Source: Kiritimatiellia bacterium
Lineage (GTDB): Bacteria; Verrucomicrobiota; Kiritimatiellia; CAIQIC01; Lenti-01
Assembly (NCBI GenBank): GCA_017445365.1
Contig: JAFSUH010000183.1
Span: 1-36,370, forward strand
Direction: 5' to 3'
DNA length: 36,370 nucleotides
A program made the position numbers and the translations under genes. Positions 824-23,464 of the stretch are shown here, piece after piece (the stretch's first letter is position 1; every line of letters starts with the position of its first letter). The notes under the pieces are model-generated. The model worked only from the letters and a program-made list of their open reading frames with translations, searched no databases and had not been told where the DNA came from.

Positions 824-863
824 GGATTCGCCTCGGGCATGGGGTTTCCTTGGGGAGGAGGCG

Positions 864-892
864 ACTCTACACGATTCGCGGGGTTTGGCAAA
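864..892 (-). promoter_or_regulatory. Candidate promoter of the partial membrane protein
   Basis: On the minus strand TTTGCC (887-892) and TAGAGT (864-869) are separated by 17 bases, 41 bases ahead of the start codon at 823. The -10 resembles those in front of several other genes here (TAGAGT, TAGACT, TAGGAT). It is assigned from sequence similarity only. Confidence 0.4.
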
Positions 893-937
893 GGGCCGGG
901 GGCCCGTTTTCCGCGGCACCCGCCGCGCCTCCGGCCG

Positions 938-988
938 TTTTGCCAATGCTTGGCAAAACCGGGCCGTTTTTGCCGAACATTGGCAAAA
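938..988. repeat. Paired intergenic palindromes, family TTTTGCC..GGCAAAA
   Basis: Two adjacent palindromes: TTTTGCCAA-TGC-TTGGCAAAA at 938-958 and TTTTGCC-gaacatt-GGCAAAA at 968-988, separated by a short GC linker. Related pairs occur at 7582-7631 and 25973-26024, and a double pair at 28730-28855. This copy lies between divergent promoters. It could form RNA hairpins or bind a dimeric protein; neither is shown. Confidence 0.8.
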
Positions 989-994
989 TGCGGC

Positions 995-1024
995 TTGGAG
1001 GCGGCGGGGGGAAAACGCTAGGAT
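995..1024 (+). promoter_or_regulatory. Candidate promoter of the CotH-domain gene
   Basis: TTGGAG (995-1000) and TAGGAT (1019-1024) are 18 bases apart and lie 47 bases ahead of the proposed GTG start at 1071. A GGAAAGGA Shine-Dalgarno follows at 1057-1064. Confidence 0.4.
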
Positions 1025-1070
1025 GCTTCCGTTCCCCTCCCCTTCCTCCCCTCTCCGGAAAGGATTCCCC

Positions 1071-6255: not shown

Positions 6256-7416
6256 ATGGCATACCGCATCAACCTCAACGGCATTTCCTTCCACGGCAAG
6301 GGCGCCATCGCCGAAATCCCCGCCCTTCTCAAGGCCGGCGGCTTCAAGAAAGTCTTCGTCGCCACCGACCCCGGACTTCTCGCCATCGGCACGACGGCGA
6401 AGGTGACCGACCTCCTCAAGGCCGCGAAAATCAAGTTCGACCTTTTCAGCGACATCAAGCCCAACCCGACCATCGAAAACGTCAAGGCGGGCGTCAAGGC
6501 GTTCAAGGCGTCGAAGGCGGATTGCATCGTGGCGATCGGCGGCGGCTCCGCGATGGACACGGCGAAAGCCGTCGGCATCATCGCCACCAACCCCAAGTTC
6601 TCCGACGTGCGCTCCCTCGAAGGCCTTTCGCCCACGAAGAAGCCCGCGGTCTTCACCATCGCCGTCCCCACCACCTCCGGCACCGCGGCGGAAGTGACCA
6701 TCAACTACGTCATCACCGACCGCGCGAAAGACCGCAAGTTCGTCTGCGTGGACCCGCACGACATCCCGCAGATCGCCGTTGTCGATTCCGGCATGATGCT
6801 TTCGATGCCCGACAAGCTCGCCGCCGCGACCGGCATGGACGCTTTGACGCACGCCATCGAAGGCTACGTCACGCGCGCCGCCAACGACATGACCGACATG
6901 TTCCACTTGAAGGCCATCGAGCTGATTGCCGCGAACCTCCGCCAATCCGTCAACGGCAAGGGCGCGAAAAAGGAAGCGGCCCGCGAGAAGATGGCCCTCG
7001 CCCAGTACATCGCGGGCATGGGGTTCTCCAACGTCGGCCTCGGCATCGCCCACTCCATGGCGCATCCGCTCTCCGCGTTCTACGACACGCCGCACGGCGT
7101 CGCCTGCGCGATTCTCCTCCCGCCCGTCATGAAGTTCAACGCCCCCGCCACGGCCAGGCGCTACATCGACATCGCCCGCGCCATGGGCGTCAAGGGCGCC
7201 GACGCGATGCCCCTGGCGAAGGCCCGCAAGGCCGCCTGCGAGGCGGTGGCGAAGCTCGGAGCCGACGTCGGCATCCCGCCGGACTTGAAGGGCATCGTGC
7301 AGGCGAAGGACATCCCCTTCCTCGCGCATTCGGCTTACGTCGATGCGTGCCGTCCCGGCAACCCGCGCGACGTCACCGAAGAGGAAATCGCAAAGCTCTA
7401 CAAGTCCTTGATCTGA
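6256..7416 (+). CDS. Iron-containing alcohol dehydrogenase (FucO/DhaT-like)
   Basis: A 386-residue cytosolic NAD(P)-dependent oxidoreductase of the group III (iron-activated) alcohol dehydrogenase family, the usual length. Family members interconvert short alcohols or diols and the corresponding aldehydes. The GGGS nucleotide-binding motif is at 95-98. The four metal ligands align with those of FucO as D195 and H199 (in TGMDALTHAIEGY), H266 (in IAHSMAHP) and H280 (in YDTPHG). The start is supported by AAGGAG at 6244-6249. The gene stands alone between two strong terminators, so the context does not reveal its substrate. Lactaldehyde, propanediol or butanol oxidoreductase are all possible, and I give no symbol for that reason. 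Confidence 0.95.
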   Translation: MAYRINLNGISFHGKGAIAEIPALLKAGGFKKVFVATDPGLLAIGTTAKVTDLLKAAKIKFDLFSDIKPNPTIENVKAGVKAFKASKADCIVAIGGGSAMDTAKAVGIIATNPKFSDVRSLEGLSPTKKPAVFTIAVPTTSGTAAEVTINYVITDRAKDRKFVCVDPHDIPQIAVVDSGMMLSMPDKLAAATGMDALTHAIEGYVTRAANDMTDMFHLKAIELIAANLRQSVNGKGAKKEAAREKMALAQYIAGMGFSNVGLGIAHSMAHPLSAFYDTPHGVACAILLPPVMKFNAPATARRYIDIARAMGVKGADAMPLAKARKAACEAVAKLGADVGIPPDLKGIVQAKDIPFLAHSAYVDACRPGNPRDVTEEEIAKLYKSLI

Positions 7417-7648: not shown

Positions 7649-8119
7649 TCAATTCCCGGCCTTGGCCGCGAACCGGCGGAGGCGGGCGTCCAGCCATTCC
7701 AGCGTTTTGTCCCGCCGCTTGCCTTCGAGCCCGCAGGTCCAAAGCACCACGACGCCCCACCCTTCCTCCCGCCAAAGCGCCTCGTGCCGTTCGTCCCGCC
7801 GCACGTTCGCGCGGAACTTCGCGTTCCAGAACGCCCGATTCGTTTCCGGCGTCGTCGCTTGGGGGCAGAAGGCCGTCCAGACGAGCTTCCGCCCGTCCCA
7901 CTCCCAGCCGTGCCGGTGCCAGAAGCACCCGCGGATTTCGATCAAGGTACGCGCCCGCGGCACCACGATGTCCGGCCGCCCCGTGAAGCGCCGGTCGCAG
8001 GTACGGAACCGCCACCCCCTCGCGTGCAGGAACTTCCGCACGAGCAGCTCCGGCTTCGTGTCCCGCGACCGGATCGCCGCCATCATCCGGCTCCTCGTCT
8101 CCCGGCTCACCGTGTCCAT
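7649..8119 (-). CDS. vsr: Very short patch repair (Vsr) endonuclease
   Basis: A 156-residue protein of normal length for the family. Vsr nicks next to T:G mismatches that arise when 5-methylcytosine deaminates, and it usually accompanies a C5-cytosine methyltransferase; one is encoded at 15509-16543. The N-terminus matches the family (TRSRMMAAIRSRDTKPE). Other family motifs are GRPDIVVP with the catalytic Asp at D50, GCFWHRH (64-70) and KFRANVRRD. The position equivalent to His64 of the E. coli enzyme is Arg63, and Glu61 stands two residues before it, giving a D50...E61-x-R63 arrangement closer to a general PD-(D/E)xK nuclease. The first 46 bases of the gene region are duplicated at 9484-9529, on the other side of an ATPase gene, so vsr once followed the DUF2357 gene directly. 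The gene is last in the island and is followed by a terminator. Confidence 0.93.
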   Translation of the reverse strand: MDTVSRETRSRMMAAIRSRDTKPELLVRKFLHARGWRFRTCDRRFTGRPDIVVPRARTLIEIRGCFWHRHGWEWDGRKLVWTAFCPQATTPETNRAFWNAKFRANVRRDERHEALWREEGWGVVVLWTCGLEGKRRDKTLEWLDARLRRFAAKAGN

Positions 8120-8121
8120 GG
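8076..8121. repeat. 46-bp direct repeat, copy within intact vsr
   Basis: It covers the vsr start codon and the first 14-15 codons. It is identical except for one base to 9484-9529, and the two copies bracket the ATPase gene at 8151-9362. Confidence 0.9.
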
Positions 8122-8150
8122 GTTCTTGTCCGGGTTCCGCCCGCGCCCGT

Positions 8151-9362
8151 TCAGTAAAGCAGGCCGAACATCCACAGGGGAATCCGGTGGCGGAATCCGA
8201 TTTCGGTGCCGTCCACGGCGAGGTACCCGTCCGCTTCGTCCGCGATTTGCGCGAACGTCTTGTTCTTGCCCCCGACCTCGAAAACCCACTTGCCGTCCAC
8301 GAGGAAGTCGCCCCGTGCCGGATAGTTCACCGTGCGGACCTGCCGGACTTGGTTGAAGAAGAACGTTTCCCGGATGGTTCCCGCGTCGGGCGAAGGCGAA
8401 AGCGCGTACATGAGGTTCGGGTCGCCGAGATAGATTTTGTCCGGCCGGGAAAGTCCCTTCAGGCTGCGGGCGCGGTCGGAGAGCAGGCCGAGAAGGCCAC
8501 CCCGTTGGAGCGCATCCAGCATTTTCAGCCCCTGGTTCCGGTCCGTTTCCAGTTCGCGGCAGAGTTTTTCGAAATTGACCTTCTGCGGGACCCGTTCCGC
8601 GAGAATCATCAGCATTTTCCGCGCCTTCCGGATGGTCGCGGGGGAGATTTCCTCGACGGCGGGGTAGTCGCTTTCGAGCACCTGCGCGGCCACCTGCGCG
8701 AGCCTTTGGGCGAAGCCGCGCTTCACTTCCTTGAAAAACGGGTAGTACCCGCTTTTGACGTACGCCTCGAACGCGGGGAGCACCCGGATGCGGGAGCAGA
8801 TGCCTTCGGCAATGGGAACGTGTTGTTCGAGGAGCCGTTCGAACGGGACGGCGGGCACGTCGAGACCGCACGCGAAAAGAAGGTATTCCCGGAAGGACAA
8901 GCCCGGCAGGTCGTAGACGATCTGCCGCCGCGAGAGATCGCCCTGCATCCTGTTCAGCCGCAGCATCGAAGAGCCGGTATAGACGAAATGCAAGCCGGGG
9001 AAATCGTCGTACAGGTTCTTGAGAAGCGTCTGCCAGTGGGGGACATGGTGCACCTCGTCGAGGAACACGTGCGTCCCGCCGTGCGTGAAATGGTCTTCCA
9101 CGAGCTCGGCGACGTCGTGCGCGGCGAACCAAAGGGCGTCGAGCGAGGCGTAGAGCGCTTTCGCCGGGTCGGGAAACGCTTCCCGGATGCGCTGGAACAT
9201 GGCGGTCGTTTTTCCGCAGCCGCGGGGACCCCTGATGCAGATCAGCCGGTCGTCCCAGTCGATCGCCGCGACGGGCGCGCGCCGGAACGCCATCGAAACG
9301 GCGGCGATCCGCCGCCGGAAGCTCCGGTCCAGTTTGGCAAAGTCTTTGGTCGATTGTTCCAT
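8151..9362 (-). CDS. AAA_14-family P-loop ATPase in an inserted cassette
   Basis: A 403-residue protein. The Walker A motif is GPRGCGKT (45-52). The Walker B motif is FLDEVHHVP (D102, E103). A sensor-like YTGSSMLRL follows and is typical of the AAA_14 ATPases that usually carry a DUF4143-type C-terminal domain. The C-terminal part ends in a beta-rich segment (VDGKWVFEVGGKNKTF), which may be a remnant of the nuclease-like fold. No function is established for the family; members are scattered as single, often mobile genes. The gene has its own candidate promoter and a start with AAGGAT upstream. It sits between a truncated and an intact copy of the vsr 5' end, so it arrived after the surrounding operon. 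A related ATPase lies at 21846-23051. Confidence 0.85.
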   Translation of the reverse strand: MEQSTKDFAKLDRSFRRRIAAVSMAFRRAPVAAIDWDDRLICIRGPRGCGKTTAMFQRIREAFPDPAKALYASLDALWFAAHDVAELVEDHFTHGGTHVFLDEVHHVPHWQTLLKNLYDDFPGLHFVYTGSSMLRLNRMQGDLSRRQIVYDLPGLSFREYLLFACGLDVPAVPFERLLEQHVPIAEGICSRIRVLPAFEAYVKSGYYPFFKEVKRGFAQRLAQVAAQVLESDYPAVEEISPATIRKARKMLMILAERVPQKVNFEKLCRELETDRNQGLKMLDALQRGGLLGLLSDRARSLKGLSRPDKIYLGDPNLMYALSPSPDAGTIRETFFFNQVRQVRTVNYPARGDFLVDGKWVFEVGGKNKTFAQIADEADGYLAVDGTEIGFRHRIPLWMFGLLY

Positions 9363-9386
9363 TGCGTTTGTATCCTTGCGAATGCG

Positions 9387-9416
9387 AATTTATGTGATAC
9401 GTCATGCATCCGTCAA
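9387..9416 (-). promoter_or_regulatory. Candidate promoter of the inserted ATPase gene
   Basis: On the minus strand TTGACG (9411-9416) and TAAATT (9387-9392) are 18 bases apart, 24 bases ahead of the start codon. The stretch is AT-richer than its surroundings and lies inside the inserted cassette, which would let the ATPase be expressed on its own. Confidence 0.5.
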
Positions 9417-9443
9417 CGAAAATTCATGTTTCAAGACACGATT

Positions 9444-9527
9444 TCAAAGGAACAAACCATGTCCGGAAACACGATTCCGGCCTGCCGCCATCATCCGGCT
9501 CCCCGTCTCCCGGCTCACCGTGTCCAT
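9444..9527 (-). pseudogene. Truncated 5' remnant of vsr
   Basis: From the ATG at 9527, 9 bases after the DUF2357 gene stop, the frame reads MDTVSRETGSRMMAA and then diverges and stops after 27 codons. The first 15 residues match intact vsr except for one Gly/Arg change. This is the original start of vsr, separated from the rest of the gene by the ATPase cassette. Confidence 0.8.
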
Positions 9528-9529
9528 GG
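9484..9529. repeat. 46-bp direct repeat, copy next to the DUF2357 gene
   Basis: Matches 8076-8121 at 45 of 46 positions. The two copies delimit an insert of about 1.4 kb. Confidence 0.9.
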
Positions 9530-9536
9530 CCGGTTC

Positions 9537-11708
9537 CTACCGCTTCAGCGAAAACAACCAGTATTCCGCGTGTCCCGGCTTCGGATATCCCATCCCGGAG
9601 AGTTTTTCGCGGGAAACCCGTTCCACGCCCGTGATGAAAAACACCTCCACGTCGGCGGTTCTCCTCCCGCGCGGCGGCGCGGCCAACGCCAGGATCCGTT
9701 TCCGCCGGGCGTCCGCCTCCGTCAGGATTCCCTTTCCCTCCGCCTCTTCGCACGGCAGGGGATAGAGCAGGCGCTTTTCCACCCACGCGGTTTTTTCCGA
9801 TTCCGCGCCGTGGCTTGTTCCGTAGAGCGTCAAATCTTCCGCGGCCCCCGCGATGCCGTCGACGAACGCCGACGTTCCCCGTGTCGGGATGGTGCCGTCG
9901 AGGTGGGCGTGCGCGTCCGCCTTCCCGAGGATTCCGCGGATGCACGCTTCCAGCGGCCCGAGATGTCCCGGCAGCAGCGGAACCGCCCCGATGTTTTCCC
10001 GCCGGATCGATTCCGCGTAATCCCCGCAGAGATGCGGCTCCGGCCTGCCCGGATAGAGCACGTAGGCCCCGATGGTTTCGCGTTTCAGTTCCGTCTTCCC
10101 GAGCCGGTAGAGGATGGCGTCCCGGTAGCGGTGCATGTCGTCGATGGCCGCGCGCGGCGAAGCGTCGATTTCCCTCCCGCCTTCCGTCTTCGTCGCGATG
10201 CGGTATTTCGCGTCGAAGAGGTAGGTGAACGTCGATTCCCCGTCGACAATCGACAGCACGATGTCCGGCCGCTGCGGGTTGAGTCCCGCCATCGTCCCGC
10301 CGTCGGCGCACTCCTCCGCCGGGTACGTCTTCTGGTAGGAAAGCAGGCACCGCCGCGACCCGTCCGAAAACGCCACGTCGATCTTGCAGAGCTGGCCGCC
10401 GTCCCCGCTTTCGTCCGTCAGCTCCGGCGCGTCCAGGAGTTCGTCGGGCGAACGGTCCCGCCACTCCTGGCTTTCCGGTTCGCCGAAATGCGCCTTCAGG
10501 ACGTCCCGCATCTTGAGGAAGCACCAGAATTCGTAGAGCGTGCTGATCGGCCGGTATCCGACGTCGATGTCGTCGCCTCCCGGACGGAGCGCCGACTTCA
10601 GTTTCAGCCATGCCGTGAGGATTTGCGCGTATCCCGTGCTTTTCTGCATCACGAGGCTCTGCTGGCGGAACCCCTCGAACCGCGACACGCCCCGGAAGAA
10701 CGGATGCCGCGCCAGCCGTTCCAGCCGCCGCGCCCGTTCGGCGATGCCGTCCTTCCAGCCCTGCGAGACGGCCTCCTCGTCCTCCAGCCGCCCGCCGAAC
10801 TCCCGGAGGCGCCGTTCCAGTTCCCGCAGCGTATGGAGCACGAAGCGGTTTTCCGGCGTGTCGCTCTCCGCTTCCAGCCGTTCCGTACGGAAGAACTCGT
10901 GCGCGCGCCGGTCGCCGTCCAGGCGGTGGAAGCAGGCGGCCAGTTGCGGCGTCCAGCGCCGGATGCGGTCGGCGCGCCGCCAGTCGTCCATCGCCAGATA
11001 CCGCCGGTGGGGATTCCCGGCGATGCGGCGGCAGGCGCCCTCGTAGTAGTCGAACACCTCCAGCAGGATGTCGTACCAGCTTTTCCCGTCCGGTTCGCCG
11101 CCCCGGTCGAGGGCCGCCCCCCAAAACGTCTTGCTGAGGAACGCCCGCACGATGTTCGGCTTTTCCGCGTCGATAGTCCGGACGATTTCCCCGTAGTCGC
11201 GCACCACGTTCATTTTCACGGAAACCACCGTGGATTCCAGCCGCACCGTCCGCTCCGTGCCGTCGTCGAAGGAAACGCGCAGGTCGAGCCGGAACCGCCC
11301 CGGCTCGTTGACGAAGTCCAGCGTCCCGACGAGGACCCCGCCGTCGAAGTTGAAGGCGTCCGCCACGCTGGCCATCCGGTGTTCCACGCGCACGTCCCGC
11401 ACTTTCCGTCCCCCCGCCTCCCCGAAGTCCCCCCGGAAGAAGTAGCGCGTCTCGAAAAACACGGGCAAGGCCTTCACGGGTTCGCCGCCCGCGGCGAATG
11501 CCCGTTCCGGGCCGTCCCCCGCGAAGCGGAACGTGCAGTCGGCGTTCGCGGAATACTCCGTCAAAAGCTTCGACTGGTCCTCCGGGAAATCCTCCAGGAT
11601 GCGCTTCCGGTAGGCCTCCTGTTTGCCGCCGATGTCGCCCCGCACCTTGAGAACGAGCCCGACGGACGGCACCGCCGCCCGGAACACCTCTGTCGCACCC
11701 TGCGCCAT
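9537..11708 (-). CDS. DUF2357 / PD-(D/E)xK nuclease, McrC-like restriction subunit
   Basis: A 723-residue protein. The N-terminal two thirds fit the DUF2357 type of McrBC-associated proteins. The C-terminal part has a PD-(D/E)xK nuclease core with RPD482I, then FD499AK501Y, and a downstream helix IDDMHRYRDAI. Proteins of this kind pair with McrB-like AAA+ GTPases; the GTPase translocates and the nuclease cuts. The partner gene is two genes upstream (13260-14816). The start lies 3 bases after the stop of the AlbA-type gene, so translation is probably coupled. It is the likely cleavage subunit of the island. GC content is high and matches the chromosome, unlike the upstream methyltransferase segment. 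The family assignment is by motif and context; target specificity cannot be read from the sequence. Confidence 0.85.
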   Translation of the reverse strand: MAQGATEVFRAAVPSVGLVLKVRGDIGGKQEAYRKRILEDFPEDQSKLLTEYSANADCTFRFAGDGPERAFAAGGEPVKALPVFFETRYFFRGDFGEAGGRKVRDVRVEHRMASVADAFNFDGGVLVGTLDFVNEPGRFRLDLRVSFDDGTERTVRLESTVVSVKMNVVRDYGEIVRTIDAEKPNIVRAFLSKTFWGAALDRGGEPDGKSWYDILLEVFDYYEGACRRIAGNPHRRYLAMDDWRRADRIRRWTPQLAACFHRLDGDRRAHEFFRTERLEAESDTPENRFVLHTLRELERRLREFGGRLEDEEAVSQGWKDGIAERARRLERLARHPFFRGVSRFEGFRQQSLVMQKSTGYAQILTAWLKLKSALRPGGDDIDVGYRPISTLYEFWCFLKMRDVLKAHFGEPESQEWRDRSPDELLDAPELTDESGDGGQLCKIDVAFSDGSRRCLLSYQKTYPAEECADGGTMAGLNPQRPDIVLSIVDGESTFTYLFDAKYRIATKTEGGREIDASPRAAIDDMHRYRDAILYRLGKTELKRETIGAYVLYPGRPEPHLCGDYAESIRRENIGAVPLLPGHLGPLEACIRGILGKADAHAHLDGTIPTRGTSAFVDGIAGAAEDLTLYGTSHGAESEKTAWVEKRLLYPLPCEEAEGKGILTEADARRKRILALAAPPRGRRTADVEVFFITGVERVSREKLSGMGYPKPGHAEYWLFSLKR

Positions 11709-11711
11709 GAC

Positions 11712-13244
11712 TCAAGTCTTCACGAACCACCCGCCCGTCCGCTTGGAACCGCGATATTCAATTTTGTTATGAGAGGCCAAACGGCCTAAAACGCGGCGGA
11801 TAGAGCGGGTGGAGGTCTTGATTTCGAGAAAAATAGCTTCCAGTTTTATTCCGGGGTGATTGTGAATCACTTCCAAAACGGCCTGATCTTGAGCATCTGT
11901 ATCGTATGGCTTCACTTGGTTTATCTGGCCACTCTTAGCCTTTATTGGGCCACTTTCCGGATTTATCTGGCCACTTTCCGCGTTTATTTGGCCACTCTCG
12001 GAGTTTATCTGGCCACATTTTGCTTTATCGTGCCACTTTGTCTGGCCACTTTCGCCCTGCGCCATGACGGTGACACGAAACTCCGTCCGCTTGTTGACGT
12101 CGAACTGCGCGGGAGGATTGCCGTTTTTCTGCAACTCCCGGTTGGCCTTGGCGATTCCGCGGTTGTATTTGTTCACCATGCCCAGAACCTTCATCGCCTC
12201 GGCCAGAAGCGGATTCCGATAATCGTTGACGAAAGGGAAATTCTCCGGCTTGGCCCGCCCGTAAAGTCCGCCGGCGTTGGAAATCTCGATCCGGTTCTTC
12301 TCGTATTCGTAGAACTTGACGGGAGCGTTCCCCAGAAAATAGTCCCGGTGGATGATGGCGTTCATCAAAAACTCGCGCAACGCCCAGGCGGAATACCGGG
12401 AAACGGGGTCTTCCCTCATGGCGGTGGCCAGAACGGGACGCGTCGCCGCCGGCCCCGTCTTGACGAACACGTCCAGTTCCTGAACCATTCTCACCAGCGG
12501 CCCGCGGAAAACGTTTTCCTGAAGCACGTCTCCGGCATTGTCCGCCCCGGCGAACTTGACGTATTGCACGTAAGCCGACGGGATGAAGCGTTCCGGATGC
12601 TTCGCAAACAAAAGAACACCCAGATTTGTCGGACACCCCTTTTCTGGGCTGTAAAACCTCAAGGCGCTCATCTGCTCGATGGTCGTGCGGTCGTCGTCCT
12701 CGATGACCTGGGCGTCGATGGCTTTGGGCAGATAGAAGGCTTTGAAGAGCGAGATGTCCAAATCGGTCATCTTCGTGCGTTCGCAAGGAAGCTCCTCGTC
12801 CCTTGCTCCGAATCGCGCACGGCGTTCTGTGAGAATGTGGATGTCATCCTCCCGTGCCTTGCACCTCCGCGGTCCCAGTCGAATCCAGACCTCCCCGTTG
12901 TAGCGGATGGGCGGATAGGCCGAAGGAAACACCTTAATGACGATGACATCGCCCTCCTTCAACGAAAACTTCTCCATGGACATCGACGGCGGCGGCAAAA
13001 GGTTGCCGTCCGTCTTCAGCCCGCCCAACGACGCCCACCGCTCGTCGTCGATGCGCCGCCCGGAAATCTTTCCGTCGTCATCGACGCCGAGAAGCAGATA
13101 CCCGGCCTCCTCGCTGCCCGAAATGTCGTTGGCGAACGCGCAAATCGCCTGCCCGATTTTGTCCGCCTTGTCGAATGCACGGGTGCGCTCGACGTGTTCG
13201 TCCTCGAACGCCCCGATCAGTTGCCTGAGTTCCTTTTCGTCCAT
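11712..13244 (-). CDS. AlbA_2/Schlafen-type ATP-binding protein with heptad-repeat linker and winged helix
   Basis: A 510-residue protein. The N-terminus (about 10-130) fits the AlbA_2 divergent AAA/Schlafen-like domain, with AICAFANDISGSEEAGYLLLGVDDDGKI. A central GHKL-like half (ALREFLMNAIIHRDY...RIEISNAGG) is the usual partner in 'RNA-binding/ATP-binding' transcription-regulator-like proteins. Residues about 394-445 are a linker of heptads built on SGQINxE. The tail (about 446-510) looks like a winged helix (HPGIKLEAIFLEIKTSTRSIRRVLGRL). Proteins of this family occur widely in defence islands and are thought to bind nucleic acid; their role is not settled. The start follows the McrB-like stop by 15 bases with GGAAAGGG upstream, and the stop is 3 bases before the nuclease gene, so it belongs to the same operon. 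Confidence 0.82.
   Translation of the reverse strand: MDEKELRQLIGAFEDEHVERTRAFDKADKIGQAICAFANDISGSEEAGYLLLGVDDDGKISGRRIDDERWASLGGLKTDGNLLPPPSMSMEKFSLKEGDVIVIKVFPSAYPPIRYNGEVWIRLGPRRCKAREDDIHILTERRARFGARDEELPCERTKMTDLDISLFKAFYLPKAIDAQVIEDDDRTTIEQMSALRFYSPEKGCPTNLGVLLFAKHPERFIPSAYVQYVKFAGADNAGDVLQENVFRGPLVRMVQELDVFVKTGPAATRPVLATAMREDPVSRYSAWALREFLMNAIIHRDYFLGNAPVKFYEYEKNRIEISNAGGLYGRAKPENFPFVNDYRNPLLAEAMKVLGMVNKYNRGIAKANRELQKNGNPPAQFDVNKRTEFRVTVMAQGESGQTKWHDKAKCGQINSESGQINAESGQINPESGPIKAKSGQINQVKPYDTDAQDQAVLEVIHNHPGIKLEAIFLEIKTSTRSIRRVLGRLASHNKIEYRGSKRTGGWFVKT
11920..12018 (-). repeat. 21-bp tandem repeats encoding SGQINxE heptads
   Basis: Four to five imperfect 21-base units, seen on the plus strand as TTTATCTGGCCACTnTC, inside the AlbA-type gene. 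They encode a repeating SGQINxE peptide in the linker before the C-terminal winged helix. Unit number is likely to vary between strains by slippage. Confidence 0.85.
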
Positions 13245-13259
13245 ACCCGTTCCCTTTCC

Positions 13260-14816
13260 TTACGGCCAAAACGTCAGATATTCGTCCGGGCGGGCGAGAA
13301 TCGCCTCCATCATCTTCGCGCTCATGCCCTCCGCCGGAACCTTGTCCTTGAGGCCCGGCAGGTTCTTTTCCCCGCCTTCGCCCTTGACCTTGTGCCCGTT
13401 GAAGAGGACATCGACGATTCTCCGCTCCCCGTGGATGCGGGGCAGGAGCTTCATCAGCACCACGTGGTCGAGCGCCTTGGCCGCGAATGCCTTTTTCGCC
13501 GCGTCCCCGGCCGCCGCCGTGTCGAATCCCTCCAGCTTCGCCAGCGCCGCTTCGTAGAGCGCGTATTCGTTCGCGAACCGGTAGGCCACGACGAAGGCCG
13601 TGTTCGCCAGCGGCTCGTTGATGCCGTCCAGGAGGGCGCTTTCGATTCCGCCCACCGCGCCGCGCACGCCGCCGTCGAGGAAGAAGCGGATGCCGTCGTC
13701 GTCGAGCAGTTCCTCTTCGGACGGCTTCCGGACGTTTGCCATGCCGCCGAAATCCGCTTCGGTCATGAGCAGCGTCATCGCCCGGTCGAGGACCTTGCGG
13801 GAGAACTGGCACGTCGTCTCGTCCATGTTGACGGTGCCGACCACGAACAGGTTCTTCGGGATGGTCAGCCCGTGCGCGGCGATCCATTCCGCCGCCTCGA
13901 CGGATTCGGCCCCTTTCATGACCTGCCCGAGGAACTCCGGGTCCGCTTCTTCCCCAGACCGCTCCGTTTCCACCAGCGGGTCGGTGAGCCAGACGCCGTT
14001 TTTCTCCTCCATGCTCTCGATGGCGCTCAGGTATTCGGCGAAATATTGCTCCACCGGTGCCAGGTTCATCTCGTCGAGGCAGACGAAGAACGGCGTCCCG
14101 GGATGGGCATGGGCCTTGCAGAGGAACGAGACGAACGGCGTGTTGACGAAGTGCCGCCCGCCCATTTCGGAGAAATACCCGAGAAGGTCGGACGAATCGT
14201 GCCAGTTGGGCTTCACCTGCACCATGCAGTAGTTGCCCGGGGCCGTCCGCCCCTCTCCTTCCGCCGCCAGCGCCTCGTCGTTGCACGTCATGTAGGCGAG
14301 CCGCCGCACCAAGCGGCTCTTGCCGGTCCCGGAATGCCCCGCGAGGATGGCGAACGGCTTGGTCCTGAGCGCCGCCGCCAGCCGCTGCAGCATCCCGTCG
14401 CCGCCGAACGCATCCGCCAGCGACCGGGCCCCGTGCTTTTGCGCCGCCTGTGCATCGACCCGTTTCCATTGCTTTTTCATGATTTCCTCCCGGGTTGCTT
14501 TGTCTCCTACATCCGCATGGACAACGGGAATCTGTCCCAAAACCATCTTTGCCATTTTTGCCAGAGTCCCCGCATAACCGTATTCAAATCGGTCAATCTC
14601 CGTTTTTCCGACGAGTTTTTCTCTCGCGGTTTGAGACGGCATGTCGGGAGATTCCCTGTATGCCTCCACCCATTCAGCGAGCAAAGCCTTGGAAATCGTG
14701 CGGACGCCAACCGCACCGTTCGAAACCGACTTTACGCTGTAGCAAAGCCTGTCTTCATCCAAAACAACCAGCGAATCATCCTGGGTTTTGTCGCCAACGC
14801 TCAATTCTTTTTGCAT
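13260..14816 (-). CDS. McrB-like AAA+ ATPase/GTPase with unidentified N-terminal domain
   Basis: A 518-residue protein. Its AAA+ core has Walker A GHSGTGKS (160-167), Walker B FFVCLDE (D248, E249) and the McrB-type signature GTVNMDETT...RKVLDRA (about 327-346). McrB proteins hydrolyse GTP, assemble as rings and drive a McrC-type nuclease, here probably the DUF2357 protein. The first 112 residues form an unrecognised domain in the position of McrB DNA-recognition domains. GAGGG supports the start at 14816. A second in-frame ATG at 14480 (Met113) follows GGGAGG, giving a 406-residue AAA+-only product. E. coli mcrB also makes a short form from an internal start. Base composition changes at the same place, with the N-terminal part AT-richer, so the gene may be a fusion of two origins. 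Confidence 0.9.
   Translation of the reverse strand: MQKELSVGDKTQDDSLVVLDEDRLCYSVKSVSNGAVGVRTISKALLAEWVEAYRESPDMPSQTAREKLVGKTEIDRFEYGYAGTLAKMAKMVLGQIPVVHADVGDKATREEIMKKQWKRVDAQAAQKHGARSLADAFGGDGMLQRLAAALRTKPFAILAGHSGTGKSRLVRRLAYMTCNDEALAAEGEGRTAPGNYCMVQVKPNWHDSSDLLGYFSEMGGRHFVNTPFVSFLCKAHAHPGTPFFVCLDEMNLAPVEQYFAEYLSAIESMEEKNGVWLTDPLVETERSGEEADPEFLGQVMKGAESVEAAEWIAAHGLTIPKNLFVVGTVNMDETTCQFSRKVLDRAMTLLMTEADFGGMANVRKPSEEELLDDDGIRFFLDGGVRGAVGGIESALLDGINEPLANTAFVVAYRFANEYALYEAALAKLEGFDTAAAGDAAKKAFAAKALDHVVLMKLLPRIHGERRIVDVLFNGHKVKGEGGEKNLPGLKDKVPAEGMSAKMMEAILARPDEYLTFWP
14478..14491 (-). promoter_or_regulatory. Internal Shine-Dalgarno and start codon inside the McrB-like gene
   Basis: On the minus strand GGGAGG (14486-14491) is followed after 5 bases by an in-frame ATG (14478-14480). 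It is among the strongest ribosome binding sites in the island, although it lies inside a reading frame. It would start translation at Met113, just before the AAA+ core. Confidence 0.6.
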
Positions 14817-14889
14817 TCAAGGCCCTCAGGTTGTTTTTGACACAAACGACATTCTCAACCCCAAAAACACCTCTCCCCCAGCCTGAATA

Positions 14890-15438
14890 TCACTTCCGCA
14901 ACTTTTTCGCAGTATGGACAGAAGCCGCAAGCAACTTGGCAATCTCTTTCCTCCACCAGTCAATCCCCCGTTGCAACCACTCTCGGCAATCGTCACATCC
15001 CCACTTTTCGGTATCGGCCATGGGCAAATAGGTGTTTTCCCAGTTGACAGCATGTTCTTGATCGACCATCACCCACATTTCATCGACATAGGAAGGTCTC
15101 ACCTCGTAAAAACAGGCATCATTCTGCTCTCCATGTATGAACCTGTGATAAACTAAGTAATCGTCACTATCGCATTCATCGTAACTTGTCTGCTCGCTAT
15201 ATTGCTGCTTTAGGGTGGCAAGCTCGGCACGGCGCTTTGTCCAAAGCGGATTGATGGCAGGATATTGTTGGATATCGTATTTCAACAGCACATCTTCGAC
15301 ACTGCGCAACGCAAGCAGACAAAATGTCCAATAAATCCTGAATAGTTGTTTGTCTTCGTGCGGCACGTTCTCCAAAAATCCCATAGCCCGCTGACAATCA
15401 TCAAGAACTTGGGTGGCTTTCAATTCTGTTGCAATCAT
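14890..15438 (-). CDS. Hypothetical protein, 182 residues, between methyltransferase and McrB-like genes
   Basis: I do not recognise this protein. The N-terminal 60 residues look helical, with a regular pattern of hydrophobics (LDDCQRAMGFLENV...FCLLALRSVEDVLLKY). The middle is acidic and aromatic (YDECDSDDYLVYHRFIHGEQ). The C-terminal part contains WGCDDCREWLQRGIDWWRKEI, where the CxxC could bind metal. AGGAG lies 5 bases upstream of the ATG. It sits 70 bases after the methyltransferase gene and 73 bases before the McrB-like gene and shares the lower GC content of the upstream genes. Position suggests an accessory subunit of the restriction system, but that is inference only. Confidence 0.75.
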   Translation of the reverse strand: MIATELKATQVLDDCQRAMGFLENVPHEDKQLFRIYWTFCLLALRSVEDVLLKYDIQQYPAINPLWTKRRAELATLKQQYSEQTSYDECDSDDYLVYHRFIHGEQNDACFYEVRPSYVDEMWVMVDQEHAVNWENTYLPMADTEKWGCDDCREWLQRGIDWWRKEIAKLLAASVHTAKKLRK

Positions 15439-15508
15439 GACATCTCCTGAGTCCTGTGGTCATTTTTCATTGGCAAACTTGATTCAGTAAGCTTCAGATA
15501 AAACTTTG

Positions 15509-16543
15509 TCAGAAAAGTAACTTTAAAATCGCTTCTCCTTGTGCCTTCGCCATCGGAGGAGGAAACGCCTCGCCAATCATGGATGCGACTTTCCCGAAGC
15601 CCAATTCGTGGGGAAACCGATATGTCTTTGGAAAACCTTGGAGTATCAGGGCTTCTAGCATGTTGATGCCCCGATTTTCGGATGGATGGATGAAACGCCC
15701 CTTTGACGGGTTACCGCATCCTCGCGTGATGGTAGGCGCGACATCATCCCATGCCATCCGCCCGTAAACATCCCGGAAGCCTTGTGGATAACGTTTATGG
15801 CATCCCAGCGCCATGGCTTCTGGCAAATCCGACCTGTTCTCCTTGATATGCTCAATGCGGGCCTGCACGACTGATGAAAAATGTTGCCGAAGTCCGGCAA
15901 GATGCCGCGCCGATTCCCATCCCTTGCCTGAAGGAATTTCAATGTTTTTGATGGCATCCGCAACGGTTATCCGCAAAGGACTCTTTTGGGGGAGCACAGG
16001 CCTTTTCTTGAGCCGGCATCCAATCAAAATCATGCGTTTGCGCCGTTGGGGCACATTGAAGTCCTTGGCATCGAGAACTCCATCCACAAACTCATAGCCC
16101 CATCTCTCGGCGAGATGTTGTTTGAAAAGTGCCAATCGACTGTCCTTCAACAATCGGGGGACGTTCTCGATCAAGATGCATTTGGGATGGAACGCCTCGA
16201 CAAACCGCTCCATTTGGAAGATGAGTTCGTTCCTCGGATCGTTCGCAATCTCGCCGTTGTGGGTACGGATGGAAGAAAACCCCTGGCACGGGGGACATCC
16301 CGCCAGCAAATCCAGCCGACCGCGACGCAGACCGAGTTTTTTCTTCACCTCCAAGGGATTGACCTTGCGAATGTCATCCAAAAGAAGCGTATTGGGATGA
16401 TTCAACTTGTAGGTATCCCGGGCCTCCTGCCGGATTTCGCAACACGCCAAAACCTTGAACCCTGCATCCTCGAGCCCCTGACTCAATCCGCCGCAACCGG
16501 AGAATAAATCAATGGCCAAATGCCGCTTACTTTTATTCTTCAT
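15509..16543 (-). CDS. C5-cytosine DNA methyltransferase
   Basis: A 344-residue enzyme that transfers a methyl group from S-adenosylmethionine to cytosine C5. The conserved motifs are present in order: motif I DLFSGCGG (12-19), motif IV GCPPCQGFSS with catalytic C86, motif VI ENVPR (126-130), motif VIII PQRRKR (165-170), motif IX APTITRGCGNP and motif X IGEAFPPPMAKAQGEAI. The target-recognition region between VIII and IX is short, so one specificity is likely, but the site cannot be read. I chose the ATG at 16543 rather than the upstream ATG at 16600, because GGGGAGAAG precedes it and motif I then lies at the usual distance from the N-terminus. It overlaps the receiver gene by 11 bases, so translation is probably coupled. 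Confidence 0.96.
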   Translation of the reverse strand: MKNKSKRHLAIDLFSGCGGLSQGLEDAGFKVLACCEIRQEARDTYKLNHPNTLLLDDIRKVNPLEVKKKLGLRRGRLDLLAGCPPCQGFSSIRTHNGEIANDPRNELIFQMERFVEAFHPKCILIENVPRLLKDSRLALFKQHLAERWGYEFVDGVLDAKDFNVPQRRKRMILIGCRLKKRPVLPQKSPLRITVADAIKNIEIPSGKGWESARHLAGLRQHFSSVVQARIEHIKENRSDLPEAMALGCHKRYPQGFRDVYGRMAWDDVAPTITRGCGNPSKGRFIHPSENRGINMLEALILQGFPKTYRFPHELGFGKVASMIGEAFPPPMAKAQGEAILKLLF

Positions 16544-18026
16544 CGGCAGGCTTCTCCCCGCGAAGGTCGCGTGACAGCGAAGGTTGATCGACCCCCACAC
16601 GCCGTATGCGTGACATATAACGACTCACTAGACGATTCAGAATATCTTGGCGGAACACTCCGGCAGGAGTTATTGGCGCCTTTAATTCATCTTTCTGTTT
16701 TGCCACCATGGCAGTTGCCTCATGCCAGAAAACGTACGCTTGTCCTTGAAAGCGCAATGTTGTCTTGCCTCTTGGATCCCTTTTGAGCTGATCATAATCT
16801 GGAAAATTAACACCATTTTCATGGTGCGAAAGCATCTTTTTCCCACGCAAGAACAGGAAAGATTTGGCACGCACGCAATCACAAGCTGCAGAAATGCAAA
16901 CGGCAATGTCGTCGCTGTTGTCAAACATGTTGCGGTACACTTGTCCCGGGCATACTTTTTGATCTTGCAGTTCACAAGCACTTTTCTTTTCGCAGAATTC
17001 TGTATAGGCCTCAATTTCCGAAACAAAACCTGCAACACACGGGATATTCCTTGCCTTTGACAATTGTTTGTACTGATTTGCCGTCAACTTTGACTGAGGC
17101 ACGTCACAAACGCACTTTCGGACCGAATCCAACAGGCCTTTGATACTTGAATCTGTGGTCGACAACAGTTGCTCCAAATTGTCCGTAGCGGCATTTGACG
17201 GCTTCAACATGTCCATGTCCAAGGAATCAAGTGGCAAAGCCAAAACAAGAGAGGCCAAATCTTCTAACAAGTTTGACGTCAAGCATTCCTGGATCTCCTC
17301 ACAACACTTACTCTCAGTATCTGTATCACCCGATTTCCACAAATTGCCGCGTTCCACCAAAATTCCGCTATCCGTTTTTTCTGGAAGCGCAGCAAGCCAC
17401 CGCGGGGCCAGGTCTTTGATCCGCCCTGCAATTTCCAATGCAACCACATGAAGGTAATCCGGACAGACTCCAAGCAAAGCCGCATGTATCCGAGTTATCA
17501 AATTCTCTTCTCTGAATTGGTTCTTTTGCAAGCTCAACAAGAACTGACCTGAATTGTTTTTCCACAGCCCATTTGACGGCTCTTGCTTGAAGGAAGGATC
17601 CAAATTTGCATAGTTATTCTTTGATAGTTCCTTCCTCGACAGGATTACAATAAACCTGAATCCTTTATCGGAACCCAATAGCTCCTTAATGATTTTCTCC
17701 GCGAAATCACTGGAATCCGTAGTTCCCAACATCCAATCGATAATAACGACATCAGCTTGTCGGGCGAGTTGGCAACATGAACGAATTGCTCCGTCGATCT
17801 CTGGCCGATCTGCATACGGATCGGCGACAGGCCTTGCTTCGGGGAACCCCATCATGTGGCATAGCAAGCCGGCCTTGGTGAATTCATTGAACTTGTCTTG
17901 GAAAATAGGGTTTGTCCCTTCTTCAGAAAGACCTTTGTCCAAATGGATTTCATCGTCGATCCACAAAACGGACTGGCAATATTGCCGTATGATTCGTTCT
18001 CGGATTGCTTGTGCTTTTTCGTCCAT
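16533..18026 (-). CDS. Receiver-like protein with large C-terminal region, partner of the GHKL protein
   Basis: A 497-residue protein. The first 140 residues resemble a response-regulator receiver: acidic pair D24-D25 after a hydrophobic strand (SVLWIDDE), an extended insert, then VVIIDWMLG with the probable phospho-acceptor D97, and FRFIVILSRKE as the strand carrying the Ser/Thr switch. The rest (about 150-497) is rich in Cys and helices and is not recognised; there is no obvious DNA-binding output domain. The gene starts 13 bases after the stop of the double-GHKL gene and ends inside the methyltransferase gene, so the three are one transcriptional unit. The pairing suggests that the GHKL protein phosphorylates or senses through D97. 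Function is inferred from domain and context, not shown. Confidence 0.8.
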   Translation of the reverse strand: MDEKAQAIRERIIRQYCQSVLWIDDEIHLDKGLSEEGTNPIFQDKFNEFTKAGLLCHMMGFPEARPVADPYADRPEIDGAIRSCCQLARQADVVIIDWMLGTTDSSDFAEKIIKELLGSDKGFRFIVILSRKELSKNNYANLDPSFKQEPSNGLWKNNSGQFLLSLQKNQFREENLITRIHAALLGVCPDYLHVVALEIAGRIKDLAPRWLAALPEKTDSGILVERGNLWKSGDTDTESKCCEEIQECLTSNLLEDLASLVLALPLDSLDMDMLKPSNAATDNLEQLLSTTDSSIKGLLDSVRKCVCDVPQSKLTANQYKQLSKARNIPCVAGFVSEIEAYTEFCEKKSACELQDQKVCPGQVYRNMFDNSDDIAVCISAACDCVRAKSFLFLRGKKMLSHHENGVNFPDYDQLKRDPRGKTTLRFQGQAYVFWHEATAMVAKQKDELKAPITPAGVFRQDILNRLVSRYMSRIRRVGVDQPSLSRDLRGEKPADEE

Positions 18027-18039
18027 TTTTCACCCAGCT

Positions 18040-20976
18040 TCAAAGAATCTTTGACAAAACAAAATTGGCACCTGTCAACCCTCCAAGTTCGGGTTCGTCT
18101 GCCAAGATAAGGTCAAAGCCAAATTCCTTTAATGACTCTCGGGCAATGTACAAACCAAGGCCCTGTCCACCAGGACGTCGGGAAAAGCCCGGTTCGAAAA
18201 TGTATGGAGCATCCATCTTTGAAACTCCAGGGCCAGAATCAGACAGTACCAATGAGCCGTTAGCTGACACCGAGAGTCTTACAGCAGGGATTAGTGTTCC
18301 CTGTTTCGCCCAATAAAGGGAGTTTATGAAAAGGTTGTGGATTGCACCAAGGAACACAGGCCGATTCAATCCGGACCACTGGGCTAATTTAAACGAGTCA
18401 GTAAATTCACCATACACCAATTCAAGTTCCTTGACGAATCTGCGTTTCAAAAAATCCTCAATTTGGGAGCCTGTAAGACTTTCGCTCTTTGAACTACGAC
18501 GGCGTATGAGTGGATCCATCAAACGTATACGCTCTTCAATGATACCAAACGAATCCTTCAGTGCTTGAAGGCGCGTCAAATCCTCTCCCGAAAGTCGCTT
18601 GGAAAGTTTCTGGATAGTATCACGAACAATATCCACTTGCTTCTCATACTCATGCGTTGCCGTCTCGAATACGAGACCCAACTGCGCAGCAGTGACTATG
18701 TGGGAATGTTGCTCGCGCAACATCTGCAACTCGCGCGTCTGATCGGAGAGAACAAAGACGCCATTTTCGCCATCCGTAAGATGTTGCAAATTTGCACAAA
18801 GAGTTTTAAGCCGTGGAAGCACATTAGACTCCAACTCGTCAACCTCAGCTTGGATTGCCATTTCAAAAATTTCGACAGCTTGGCCCGAGCAATCCGCTGC
18901 CACTATCCGAGGCGTCAAACCATTCAAGTAATTGTCGCGAACCAGCTTTAAATTTCCGATTTCCCTTTCTACATAATCGTTTAATGCAGGAGATAGTTTT
19001 TCCACCTGCTTGAATGGTTCTGCTACTAGATTTGATATCCTTTTACGAACGAGTTCATCAACATTCTGTAATCGAACCAAGAAATGTCGTTCACGTTCTT
19101 TCATTGGGCGGACATGCGCCGCCATTTTTTGAAAATCTTGTTCTTCGCGGGCAATCTCTCCTTGCAGATTTGTGATTTGAACAGCACGTTTGGAAATGTA
19201 ATCTGTAATAATTTCCCAAGCATCACCGCATATGACAACACCATCTGGTGGTTCAGCAACGGAGGTTTGCAACTCGTTCAGGTATTCACGCAGTTTTTCA
19301 ATGGCCACCTCGCACTCGTGCAATCCTTCAGCAGAAATCGCATTCATTGTACGATTGAGCAACTGGCGCGAATGCCTAACGGCAACAACAATTGTCTCTT
19401 TGAAATTATCTAGCCATCCACGGGCATAACGTATCCTGGTTTGATACTCTTCCTTTTCCCGCTCAAGTCGCGCCTGTGCAGCCGCTTTTTTCTTCTCTTC
19501 ACGCAAGCGTCGTTTATCTTCACGATCCGCCTTGCGACCGAGGAAACGGTCTGCAATATCCACAAATACATCTTCAAGCCAGAAACGAAGGCCTCGACTT
19601 GCACCATTAACGATGAAGCCCTCCCGTCCCGCTTTTTCCTTGATTTGGTTACTATCTGCTGGAAGAAAAACCCCGCCGAACATCCGCAAGTGCGAAAAAT
19701 AATAGCGGCCAGCATTCTTGAGACGCCGTTGTTCAAAGCCCGCAAAATCGCTGTCCGGTGCACCATATGGTTGAACATGGACGCCGCCTTTATAAATGGA
19801 AAAGCCACCAGCATACTGCAAACGCATATCCATTTGACGATGCAAATCTGGTGGTAAAAATGAAATTGCAGCCGTTCCTTGCACATATCCAATTTCGATT
19901 AAGAACCGGCCCGGCGTTCGCATGCCCAGCGGCAACCTCTTCAATTGTCGACTGTATCTTATTTTTTCGGATTGATAATTGGCGATATATCCCTTTGCAA
20001 ATCCATTCTCGGAAACTTCAATGCGGATATGGTGATCGCATTTCTCGAAATCGTCAGGACTCCAATAACGGTATTTCTTATCCTTGCGAACAGGCGTTCC
20101 GTTTTTGAAGACTTCAATACGGAACGGCCTGACTTCTTCAGAATGGAATGGGTCCCAAAAACTGGAAAAAGCATTGACCGACTTCAGTTCGTAAGCGGAA
20201 GCGTCTTCCAACTCGTCCGTTCTCACAGGCGAAGTTCTGAATAAATCGCGGAGATCTTCGTTCGTGTGTACGCACAGGAACGTTGTTCCCATTTCAAAAT
20301 CACATTTCAATTGGCTCAATATCTGTTCCGATGGAATTGTAATATCGGACTGTAGCTCACGGCGAAGCGATTCGTCCCATGTCTCGTCGTGAAGGATGCC
20401 ATCGACAAGAGGGGACTGTCTCAACGACGAAAAAACGGTCTCAAATTCCTCTGGACTTGGGCCATGGTCAAACTCGGCACATGGAATGGGCAAATCCGTA
20501 AGCAATTTGGTCGGATGCCGGAAAAGATGCCAGTGGACGATGCACAACGTCCCACGTTTTTTGGATCCTTCACCCCAAACCGACCAAAGGACGGTCATTC
20601 GACCCAGGGAAGCGACCGAGAGTCTGCCGATTCCTTTTTCGCCATACGTTGTTTTGAGCCATTCCTTCTGCTCTGGCGTCGCGAATTCAGTCCATCCGTC
20701 ATCTTCTTTCTTGGCGAATTTCGATTCGGTGGCAAGAACAAGCCATTTCCCGACCACATCTTCCTTGCAACGCATTCCAAGACCATCGTCGTGAATGGAC
20801 AAAAAACCGATGCCGTTGCTGTGGTCTGCATCGAAATAATCAACTTGAACACGTCTTGCTCCCGCATCAAGAGCGTTTTTGAAGAGTTCACCGGTAGCCG
20901 TTGGTGCATCGGCGATTTGCTGCCTCCCCAACAAATCAATTACACGGGCTCTGCTTCTGAAGTTTTCAATTGCCAT
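18040..20976 (-). CDS. Double-GHKL ATPase: HSP90/MORC-like N-terminus and histidine-kinase-like C-terminus
   Basis: A 978-residue protein. I chose the ATG at 20976, which has AGGG 8 bases upstream; a GTG three codons earlier is possible. The N-terminal ATPase has an N-box (GELFKNALDAGA, N33), DDGLGM (63-68) and GEKGIGRLSVASLG, the pattern of HSP90/MutL/MORC GHKL ATPases. A long charged coiled coil lies near residues 480-515. The C-terminal part resembles a histidine kinase: H775 in ETATHEYEKQ could be the phospho-acceptor, with an N-box around N881-N885, SDSGPG (D913) and FSRRPGGQGLGLYIA. GHKL ATPases of the MORC type are known from restriction-modification neighbourhoods. The receiver-like partner follows 13 bases downstream. 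GC content is visibly lower than in the rest of the window, consistent with transfer. Confidence 0.88.
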   Translation of the reverse strand: MAIENFRSRARVIDLLGRQQIADAPTATGELFKNALDAGARRVQVDYFDADHSNGIGFLSIHDDGLGMRCKEDVVGKWLVLATESKFAKKEDDGWTEFATPEQKEWLKTTYGEKGIGRLSVASLGRMTVLWSVWGEGSKKRGTLCIVHWHLFRHPTKLLTDLPIPCAEFDHGPSPEEFETVFSSLRQSPLVDGILHDETWDESLRRELQSDITIPSEQILSQLKCDFEMGTTFLCVHTNEDLRDLFRTSPVRTDELEDASAYELKSVNAFSSFWDPFHSEEVRPFRIEVFKNGTPVRKDKKYRYWSPDDFEKCDHHIRIEVSENGFAKGYIANYQSEKIRYSRQLKRLPLGMRTPGRFLIEIGYVQGTAAISFLPPDLHRQMDMRLQYAGGFSIYKGGVHVQPYGAPDSDFAGFEQRRLKNAGRYYFSHLRMFGGVFLPADSNQIKEKAGREGFIVNGASRGLRFWLEDVFVDIADRFLGRKADREDKRRLREEKKKAAAQARLEREKEEYQTRIRYARGWLDNFKETIVVAVRHSRQLLNRTMNAISAEGLHECEVAIEKLREYLNELQTSVAEPPDGVVICGDAWEIITDYISKRAVQITNLQGEIAREEQDFQKMAAHVRPMKERERHFLVRLQNVDELVRKRISNLVAEPFKQVEKLSPALNDYVEREIGNLKLVRDNYLNGLTPRIVAADCSGQAVEIFEMAIQAEVDELESNVLPRLKTLCANLQHLTDGENGVFVLSDQTRELQMLREQHSHIVTAAQLGLVFETATHEYEKQVDIVRDTIQKLSKRLSGEDLTRLQALKDSFGIIEERIRLMDPLIRRRSSKSESLTGSQIEDFLKRRFVKELELVYGEFTDSFKLAQWSGLNRPVFLGAIHNLFINSLYWAKQGTLIPAVRLSVSANGSLVLSDSGPGVSKMDAPYIFEPGFSRRPGGQGLGLYIARESLKEFGFDLILADEPELGGLTGANFVLSKIL

Positions 20977-20986
20977 ATTGCACACC

Positions 20987-23311: not shown

Positions 23312-23388
23312 TGGTGTGCCTGGCGGGGATCGAACCCACAACCTTCAGCTCCGGAGGCTGACGCTCTGTCCAATTGAGCTACAGGCAC
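23312..23388 (-). tRNA. tRNA-Arg (anticodon CCG)
   Basis: Read on the minus strand, the acceptor stem GTGCCTG pairs with CAGGCAC, and CCA is encoded. The D-arm is AGCTCAATTGGACAGAGC. The anticodon stem TCAGC/GCTGA encloses the loop CTCCGGA, giving anticodon CCG, which reads CGG arginine codons. The T-arm contains GGTTCGATCC. All arms of the cloverleaf are regular. It is second in a two-tRNA transcript, 2 bases after tRNA-Gln. Confidence 0.97.
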
Positions 23389-23390
23389 GT

Positions 23391-23464
23391 TGGTTGTCCC
23401 ACATGGATTCGAACCATGACTAACAGATCCAGAGTCTGCTGTGCTACCGTTACACCATGGGACA
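23391..23464 (-). tRNA. tRNA-Gln (anticodon CTG)
   Basis: Read on the minus strand, TGTCCCA pairs with TGGGACA, with CCA encoded. The 5' U and the D-arm GGTGTAACGGTAGCAC are typical of bacterial tRNA-Gln. The anticodon loop CTCTGGA gives CTG, which reads CAG codons. The T-arm contains GGTTCGAATCC. It is first in the two-tRNA transcript. Confidence 0.97.

Follow-up and report, generated by a model that had tools for sequence, protein, structure and literature searches.

Do the genes of a tightly packed defence cluster form one inherited system, or have they been put together from parts? The question is raised by a cluster of DNA-defence genes in a Kiritimatiellia bacterium, lying on one contig of a metagenome-assembled genome (GCA_017445365.1, contig JAFSUH010000183.1). 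The window, meaning the whole stretch of DNA that was analysed, comprises 36,370 nucleotides, and the cluster occupies positions 7649-20985, where open reading frame calling and domain searches place nine minus-strand genes in a single direction. The source is described as a gut bacterium; its assembly consists of 248 contigs and is 66% complete, with the locus on a single contig and without reads. A first-pass annotation had taken the cluster for one composite system. The comparisons described below point instead to a join of two units, in a copy that may not restrict. It appears reasonably probable that the locus is a GTP-dependent restriction-modification operon of the McrBC type, similar to LlaJI, to which a HEF_HK/Response_reg_2 pair adds control and which arose through an exchange of modules.

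The genes are listed here in order of transcription, from 20985 to 7649, together with a junction and a repeat. All eight genes named by the first-pass annotation were confirmed by their reading frames and domains; the AAA_14 gene had been missed. The intergenic gaps from the kinase gene to the nuclease gene, taken from the coordinates, are -11 to 73 nucleotides, a spacing compatible with a single operon.

18040..20985, minus strand: sensor kinase-like protein P0001 (HATPase_c_3, HEF_HK and HATPase_c; likelier start ATG 20976)
16533..18026, minus strand: receiver protein P0002 (Response_reg_2, helical middle, C-terminal beta domain)
15509..16543, minus strand: C5 cytosine DNA methyltransferase (PF00145, TIGR00675; motifs PCQ and ENV)
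14890..15438, minus strand: 182-residue protein (no Pfam match; probable HEPN-like family)
13260..14816, minus strand: McrB-like AAA+ GTPase P0005 (AAA_5, PDC-M26A, PDB McrB 6hz4; NMDE)
14490..14515, minus strand: putative module junction within mcrB (blastn and bins of guanine-plus-cytosine (GC) content)
11712..13244, minus strand: SLFN_AlbA_2 and HATPase_c_4 protein (PF04326, 65.8 bits; PF13749, 51.5 bits)
9537..11708, minus strand: McrC-like DUF2357 and PD-(D/E)xK nuclease, PDDEXK_7 (PF09823, 112 bits; PF04411, 100.6 bits)
9477..9529, minus strand: 53-nucleotide duplicate of the start of vsr (repeat search, 92%)
8151..9362, minus strand: AAA_14/DUF4143-like ATPase, 403 residues (PF13173, 97.9 bits)
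7649..8119, minus strand: Vsr mismatch endonuclease (TIGR00632, 108.2 versus 97.85 bits; PF03852)

The join inside mcrB

The GC content is 46-52% in the front genes versus 56-69% in the back genes, with the change falling within mcrB at about 14,450-14,510, where 150-base-pair bins rise from 0.48 to 0.75. Host-like sequence borders the low-GC part at both sides. L-numbers denote the loci of relatives, and L064, on a contig of genome G411 from the same family as the source, is the closest carrier of the sensor pair with McrBC. By blastn, the DNA match to L064 stops at about 14,515 and that to L033 begins at about 14,490. Protein identities shift at the same place. Against L064 they are 68% for the kinase, 82% for the methylase and 72% for McrB residues 5-113, and then 44% for the GTPase and 42% for the nuclease. 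Against L033 they are 69% for McrB residues 109-518 and 73% for the nuclease; the nuclease of L034 is 70% identical, and the C-terminus of the AlbA_2 protein matches L033 and L034 at 72%. The window copy thus appears to be a chimera, in which a low-GC front (kinase, receiver, methylase, 182-residue protein and the first ~105 codons of mcrB) has been joined in frame to a host-like, high-GC back (GTPase, AlbA_2 protein, nuclease and Vsr).

Related loci are mosaics of a similar kind. L064 and L035 share 77% identity in the nuclease and 62% in McrB, with only 26% in the methylases, and the mcrB of L064 has a GC step of its own, from 0.48 in the first 330 nucleotides to 0.63 in the later part. L035 carries, at about 7070-7245 and upstream of an mcrB with another N-terminus, a stop-broken remnant of the N-terminal segment of window/L064-type McrB, which suggests a recurrent exchange point. 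In L063 (Kiritimatiellae RGIG2266) the same cassette is found at 15509-19323, with a kinase 82% and a methylase 81% identical to those of the window, and its back end is GmrSD with a second C5 methylase, not McrBC. A 599-residue 'DUF2357' match in L063 was rejected and relabelled C5 methylase by Pfam. From these mosaics and the shift of identities, GC content and DNA matches at one place inside mcrB, it is concluded that the kinase, receiver, methylase and N-terminal McrB segment form an exchangeable front end, found joined to more than one kind of restriction back end.

The join has left McrB short. The window protein is 518 residues long and carries the GTPase motif NMDE (TVNMDETT) of the NxD type, found also in L064, L035 and L036. 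It contains an AAA_5 domain, gives a weak but real match to the solved E. coli McrB (PDB 6hz4), and matches PADLOC PDC-M26A at 4e-40, in pieces. Some 300 residues between the N-terminal ~105 and the GTPase are absent; this region is complete in L064, and its C-terminal part is present in L033, where the contig ends. Pfam gave no match to DUF3578 (ADAM) in the window McrB and showed no coiled-coil in the proteins of the locus, no dedicated coiled-coil predictor having been run.

The nuclease carries the motif RPDIV...LFDAK, and its gene lies close to mcrB, in the same order, in relatives holding both. The AlbA_2-DUF2357 order is kept in L034, and AlbA_2 is absent next to McrB in L064, L083, L121 and L035. 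The AlbA_2 gene is therefore a feature of one sub-branch among the McrBC back ends and not, as the first-pass annotation had proposed, a general accessory of the system. Within this gene, 21-base-pair tandem repeats at 11920-12053 encode SGQINxE heptads, which form a linker before the C-terminal part; copy-number variation of the repeats is possible. Remnants of AlbA_2-DUF2357 with stops, in which the first ~60-70 nuclease residues are left, occur in L051 and L052, and the same back end thus appears to be decaying in two genomes of the class.

A scar behind the nuclease gene records a further change. A 53-nucleotide direct repeat (92%) at 8069-8121 and 9477-9529 covers the first 17 codons of vsr and flanks AAA_14. 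Since the second copy of the vsr start lies ~10 nucleotides past the nuclease stop, vsr seems once to have stood directly behind the nuclease gene, with AAA_14 inserted between them later; on account of this start-codon scar, Vsr is assigned to the McrBC back end. AAA_14 itself probably arrived in this way, as a gene foreign to the system. Its family has ten matches in the source genome and a 75% relative in G411, and two genomes of the same family have vsr relatives (66-69% identical) with no McrBC in the neighbourhood. Membership of Vsr and AAA_14 in the low-GC cassette was rejected on GC content, codon bias and host-wide paralogues or relatives. The idea of AAA_14 as a mobile gene regularly making target duplications was also rejected, other copies having no comparable repeat; those at L218 and L220 show only short matches of 15-17 base pairs. 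A second AAA_14/DUF4143 ATPase lies to the right of the island (21846-23051, plus strand).

No attachment-site-like repeat was found around the low-GC part in a repeat search, and no ancestral empty site was recognisable in family relatives, where the gene order is not kept. Promoter matches at the locus were not above shuffles, and terminator-like matches exceeded them by only ~1 standard deviation. To the right of the island lie tRNA-Arg(ccg) and tRNA-Gln(ctg) (23312-23464), again with no attachment-site-like repeat found. At 822-6047, a 1741-residue reading frame resembles, by eye only, a large secreted CotH-type protein with repeated domains.

The sensor pair and its partners

The sensing module, which the first-pass annotation did not recognise as a named one, is the HEF_HK/Response_reg_2 pair of Pfam. 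These families (PF19191 and PF19192) date from 2021, when they were described as a soluble, two-component-like pair tied to restriction-modification genes, above all C5 methylases, with 644 regions in 628 strains and Vsr often just downstream (PMC8011034). Operons of NxD-type McrBC with methyltransferases and two-component genes have been mentioned (PMC11090510). When the HEF_HK alignment was scanned against the genome collection, 262 relatives were obtained, of which the best 80 loci were studied. The receiver is present in 78 of them, a C5 methylase in 78 by tblastn (74 when counted with a stricter profile criterion), and 29 have Vsr. The grouping of HEF_HK, receiver and C5 methylase is not chance, since the three co-occur in nearly all 80 loci; nor is the gene set of the back end, since McrB and the DUF2357-nuclease adjoin in one order wherever relatives hold both.

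Joint occurrence of the sensor pair with the McrB/DUF2357 genes, on which the first-pass reading depended, is found elsewhere. McrB and McrC stand beside HEF_HK in three of the 80 loci, namely L064 (Kiritimatiellae RGIG3636), L083 (Victivallales) and L121 (Gemmatimonadota, with a PF10117 McrC), and PF19191/PF19192 were confirmed in each. The McrB label of L076 is weak (42 bits) and was left out of the follow-up, and L111, with McrB on the opposite strand, was excluded from the count. A search of the phylum from the nuclease side found other, related GHKL/receiver pairs with McrBC and methylase in L035 and L048; McrB-DUF2357 loci there are often methylase-linked without a sensor pair (L038, L039, L041, L047, L049, L050). 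Among a phylum sample of 388 genomes, PF19192 was found in the source genome alone. The pairing of sensor pair and McrBC is thus real and recurrent, but occasional.

The sensor P0001 has 981 residues, with HEF_HK between two GHKL ATPase domains (PF13589; PF19191, 27.2 bits against a cut-off of 24.1; PF02518), the N-terminal HATPase_c_3 being of the paraMORC type. Aligned with three plasmid relatives, its phospho-acceptor His778 is invariant and both sets of ATPase motifs are conserved. Translation probably starts at the ATG at 20976 and not at 20985, because the homologues in L063 and L064 align from residue 4.

The receiver P0002 (PF19192, 43.8 bits against a cut-off of 27) carries the acidic pair D24/D25 and the phospho-acceptor Asp97. 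Across 41 relatives D24, D92, D97, C377, C382 and D383 are invariant and D25 nearly so. In the C-terminal part, G361, C377, C382, D383 and R386 are invariant, and any catalytic role for them is hypothetical. An AlphaFold2 model (predicted local distance difference test score, pLDDT, 81.6) shows three parts, namely the receiver, a helical region in the middle and a beta domain. Its best PDB matches in Foldseek are MazF (expect value 6e-4; TM-score 0.72 of the target; the query being a predicted model only), with the receiver structure 2rdm also among the top matches. As the Foldseek output came without coordinates, the putative MazF-type fold is placed at about residues 355-475, no other stretch of that length being mainly beta. 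Homology to MazF/PemK by sequence was rejected, the hhalign probability being 0.2% versus 100% for a PemK control. Neither Pfam nor Foldseek revealed a DNA-binding output domain in the receiver protein, and a MazF-type fold, if real, would point to an effector and not to a transcription factor. Between close relatives the receiver is 44-48% identical versus 68-82% for its cassette neighbours, and so no other gene of the cassette changes as fast.

The methylase is a clear member of its family (PF00145, expect value 3.6e-55; TIGR00675, 162 versus 100.65 bits), 81-82% identical to those of L063 and L064. In L064, two C5 methylases flank the sensor pair, the extra one just upstream of the kinase, and McrB and McrC follow. 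No second C5 methylase, nor a relic of one, was found in the window.

The 182-residue protein belongs to a rare family, present in 4 of 346 genomes of the class with the source genome counted, and no relatives were found in viral contigs or plasmids. Its three relatives read RNSAVH, RNNVVH and RNIAVH, that is E-R-N-x-x-V-H, and the window copy reads QNDACFY. Rx4-6H with a polar residue after R is the defining motif of HEPN ribonucleases (PMC3710099). The family is probably HEPN-like, a lead, and the window copy seems to have lost both the R and the H. Pfam and PDB profiles gave no HEPN match, and a helical model from the lone sequence (pLDDT 49) is too weak to judge the fold. In L052, two genes of the family (12263-12817 and 17933-18415) lie around pieces of C5 methylase, and one of them starts with a segment resembling the McrB N-terminus.

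Proposed function and competing explanations

In complete relatives, the methylases would mark self DNA, McrB would use its N-terminal region to find unmarked sites and would drive the DUF2357-nuclease, and Vsr would repair the T:G mismatches that arise from deamination of 5-methylcytosine. The MutL-like N-terminal ATPase of the sensor may register incoming or incompletely methylated DNA, upon which phosphate would pass from His778 to Asp97 of the receiver. The C-terminal domain of the receiver could then license the restriction arm, or add an RNA- or protein-directed effect. Methylation by the window copy is probable and signalling still possible, but restriction with normal specificity has probably been lost, because the ~300-residue recognition region of McrB and the second methylase are missing. 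Loss of a methylase would be tolerable only if restriction were weak or the site needed one enzyme, and so both losses fit a disarmed copy.

Several points weigh against an operon of cooperating modules. The truncated McrB and the single methylase speak against a functional restriction system in this copy, and no NxD McrB has been characterized (PMC11090510). That just three of 80 HEF_HK loci adjoin McrB and McrC indicates that the modules need not work together. An alternative explanation, which we consider unlikely, is that two independent neighbours, a HEF_HK/receiver/C5-methylase system and an unrelated McrBC-AlbA_2-Vsr operon, were brought together by the clustering of defence genes. It would account for the 77 of 80 HEF_HK loci that have no McrBC, for the many McrB-DUF2357 loci with a methylase of their own and no sensor pair, and for the unequal GC content of the two halves. 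The boundary, however, falls inside mcrB and not between genes, the L064 cassette also runs into mcrB with its own step in the gene, and the same directional pairing recurs in L083 and L121, which belong to other lineages. The locus is moreover known from a single contig without reads, and the junction could be an assembly error. That the assembly fused the operons of two strains, so that the sequence corresponds to no single real locus, is nevertheless improbable. The incomplete, fragmented assembly, a join placed inside homologous genes, at which an assembler may cross from one strain to another, and the breaking of relatives' contigs near the same place (L033 at mcrB, L034 in AlbA_2) would favour such an error; on the other side, the join is in frame with no long shared stretch around it (the true parents are not in hand), a GC step occurs inside the mcrB of L064, another genome, and the low-GC part has host-like sequence to its left and right.

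For the sensor pair, no biochemical or phenotypic data were found in the literature, a further point against a phosphorelay that controls restriction. It is possible, though rather unlikely, that the pair is instead a MutL/MORC-like DNA clamp with a pseudo-receiver, which loads or positions the restriction complex with ATP binding as the signal and no phosphorelay. The N-terminal HATPase_c_3 resembles paraMORC proteins, which have been suggested to form a DNA loop from the recognition site to the cleavage site (PMC2292703), and the lack of a recognised DNA-binding output domain would fit. A pure clamp, however, would need none of the H-box His, acidic pair and phospho-acceptor Asp that are (near-)invariant across 41 receivers and the aligned kinases. 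A more elaborate idea, distinctly unlikely on present evidence, is that the HEF_HK/Response_reg_2 family works as a phospho-switch with a MazF-fold effector at the end of the receiver. A MutL-like sensor detecting unmethylated or restriction-resistant DNA would phosphorylate the receiver and release a toxin-like domain, which would back up whichever restriction module is present (McrBC, GmrSD or another) as a second line of defence. Hundreds of bacteria have this soluble kinase-receiver pair beside a C5 methylase, with no published experiment on its role found, and the swappable back ends make that role testable.

Comparison with known systems

The preferred reading, a LlaJI-like operon under a control pair, can be set against several known systems. 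LlaJI is McrBC-like and cuts unmethylated DNA; it has a pair of C5 methylases, and its McrB-like subunit, the counterpart of the window McrB, binds the target site (PMC1459862). It shares with the window a McrB-like GTPase, a PD-(D/E)xK subunit and a C5 methylase in one operon. The likeness, already drawn in the first-pass annotation, is borne out by L064, where two C5 methylases, McrB and the DUF2357-nuclease stand in one operon. The window differs from LlaJI in its sensor pair, its NxD motif, its one methylase and a McrB without the recognition region. The earlier argument, that a methyl-dependent McrBC beside an active methylase would be self-toxic, requires no sensor, given that LlaJI cuts unmethylated DNA. 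E. coli-type McrBC (Type IV) is further removed: the window has NMD(E) and not NxxD, lacks DUF3578 and includes a methylase. PADLOC PDC-M26A, which the window McrB matches, is a candidate family only, and the other proteins match no partner in it.

A 2024 census found NxD-motif GTPases often beside methyltransferases and two-component genes (PMC11090510), and the window conforms to this branch in having NMDE with a methyltransferase and two-component-type genes in one operon. It differs in that no coiled-coil or HEPN fusion was recognised; the census defers the branch to a later publication. With the HEF_HK/Response_reg_2 pair (PMC8011034) the window shares domains, adjacency, the neighbouring C5 methylase and the frequent Vsr, but its cassette continues into mcrB and carries the gene of the 182-residue protein. 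The text of that paper makes no mention of McrB or DUF2357, nor its domain section of the C-terminal domain of the receiver. The sister cassette L063, so close in kinase and methylase, differs in bearing GmrSD and a second C5 methylase in place of McrBC. Neither half of the window locus is therefore new in kind. The parts are known, and what their apparent join adds is that such systems swap halves, even within one gene.

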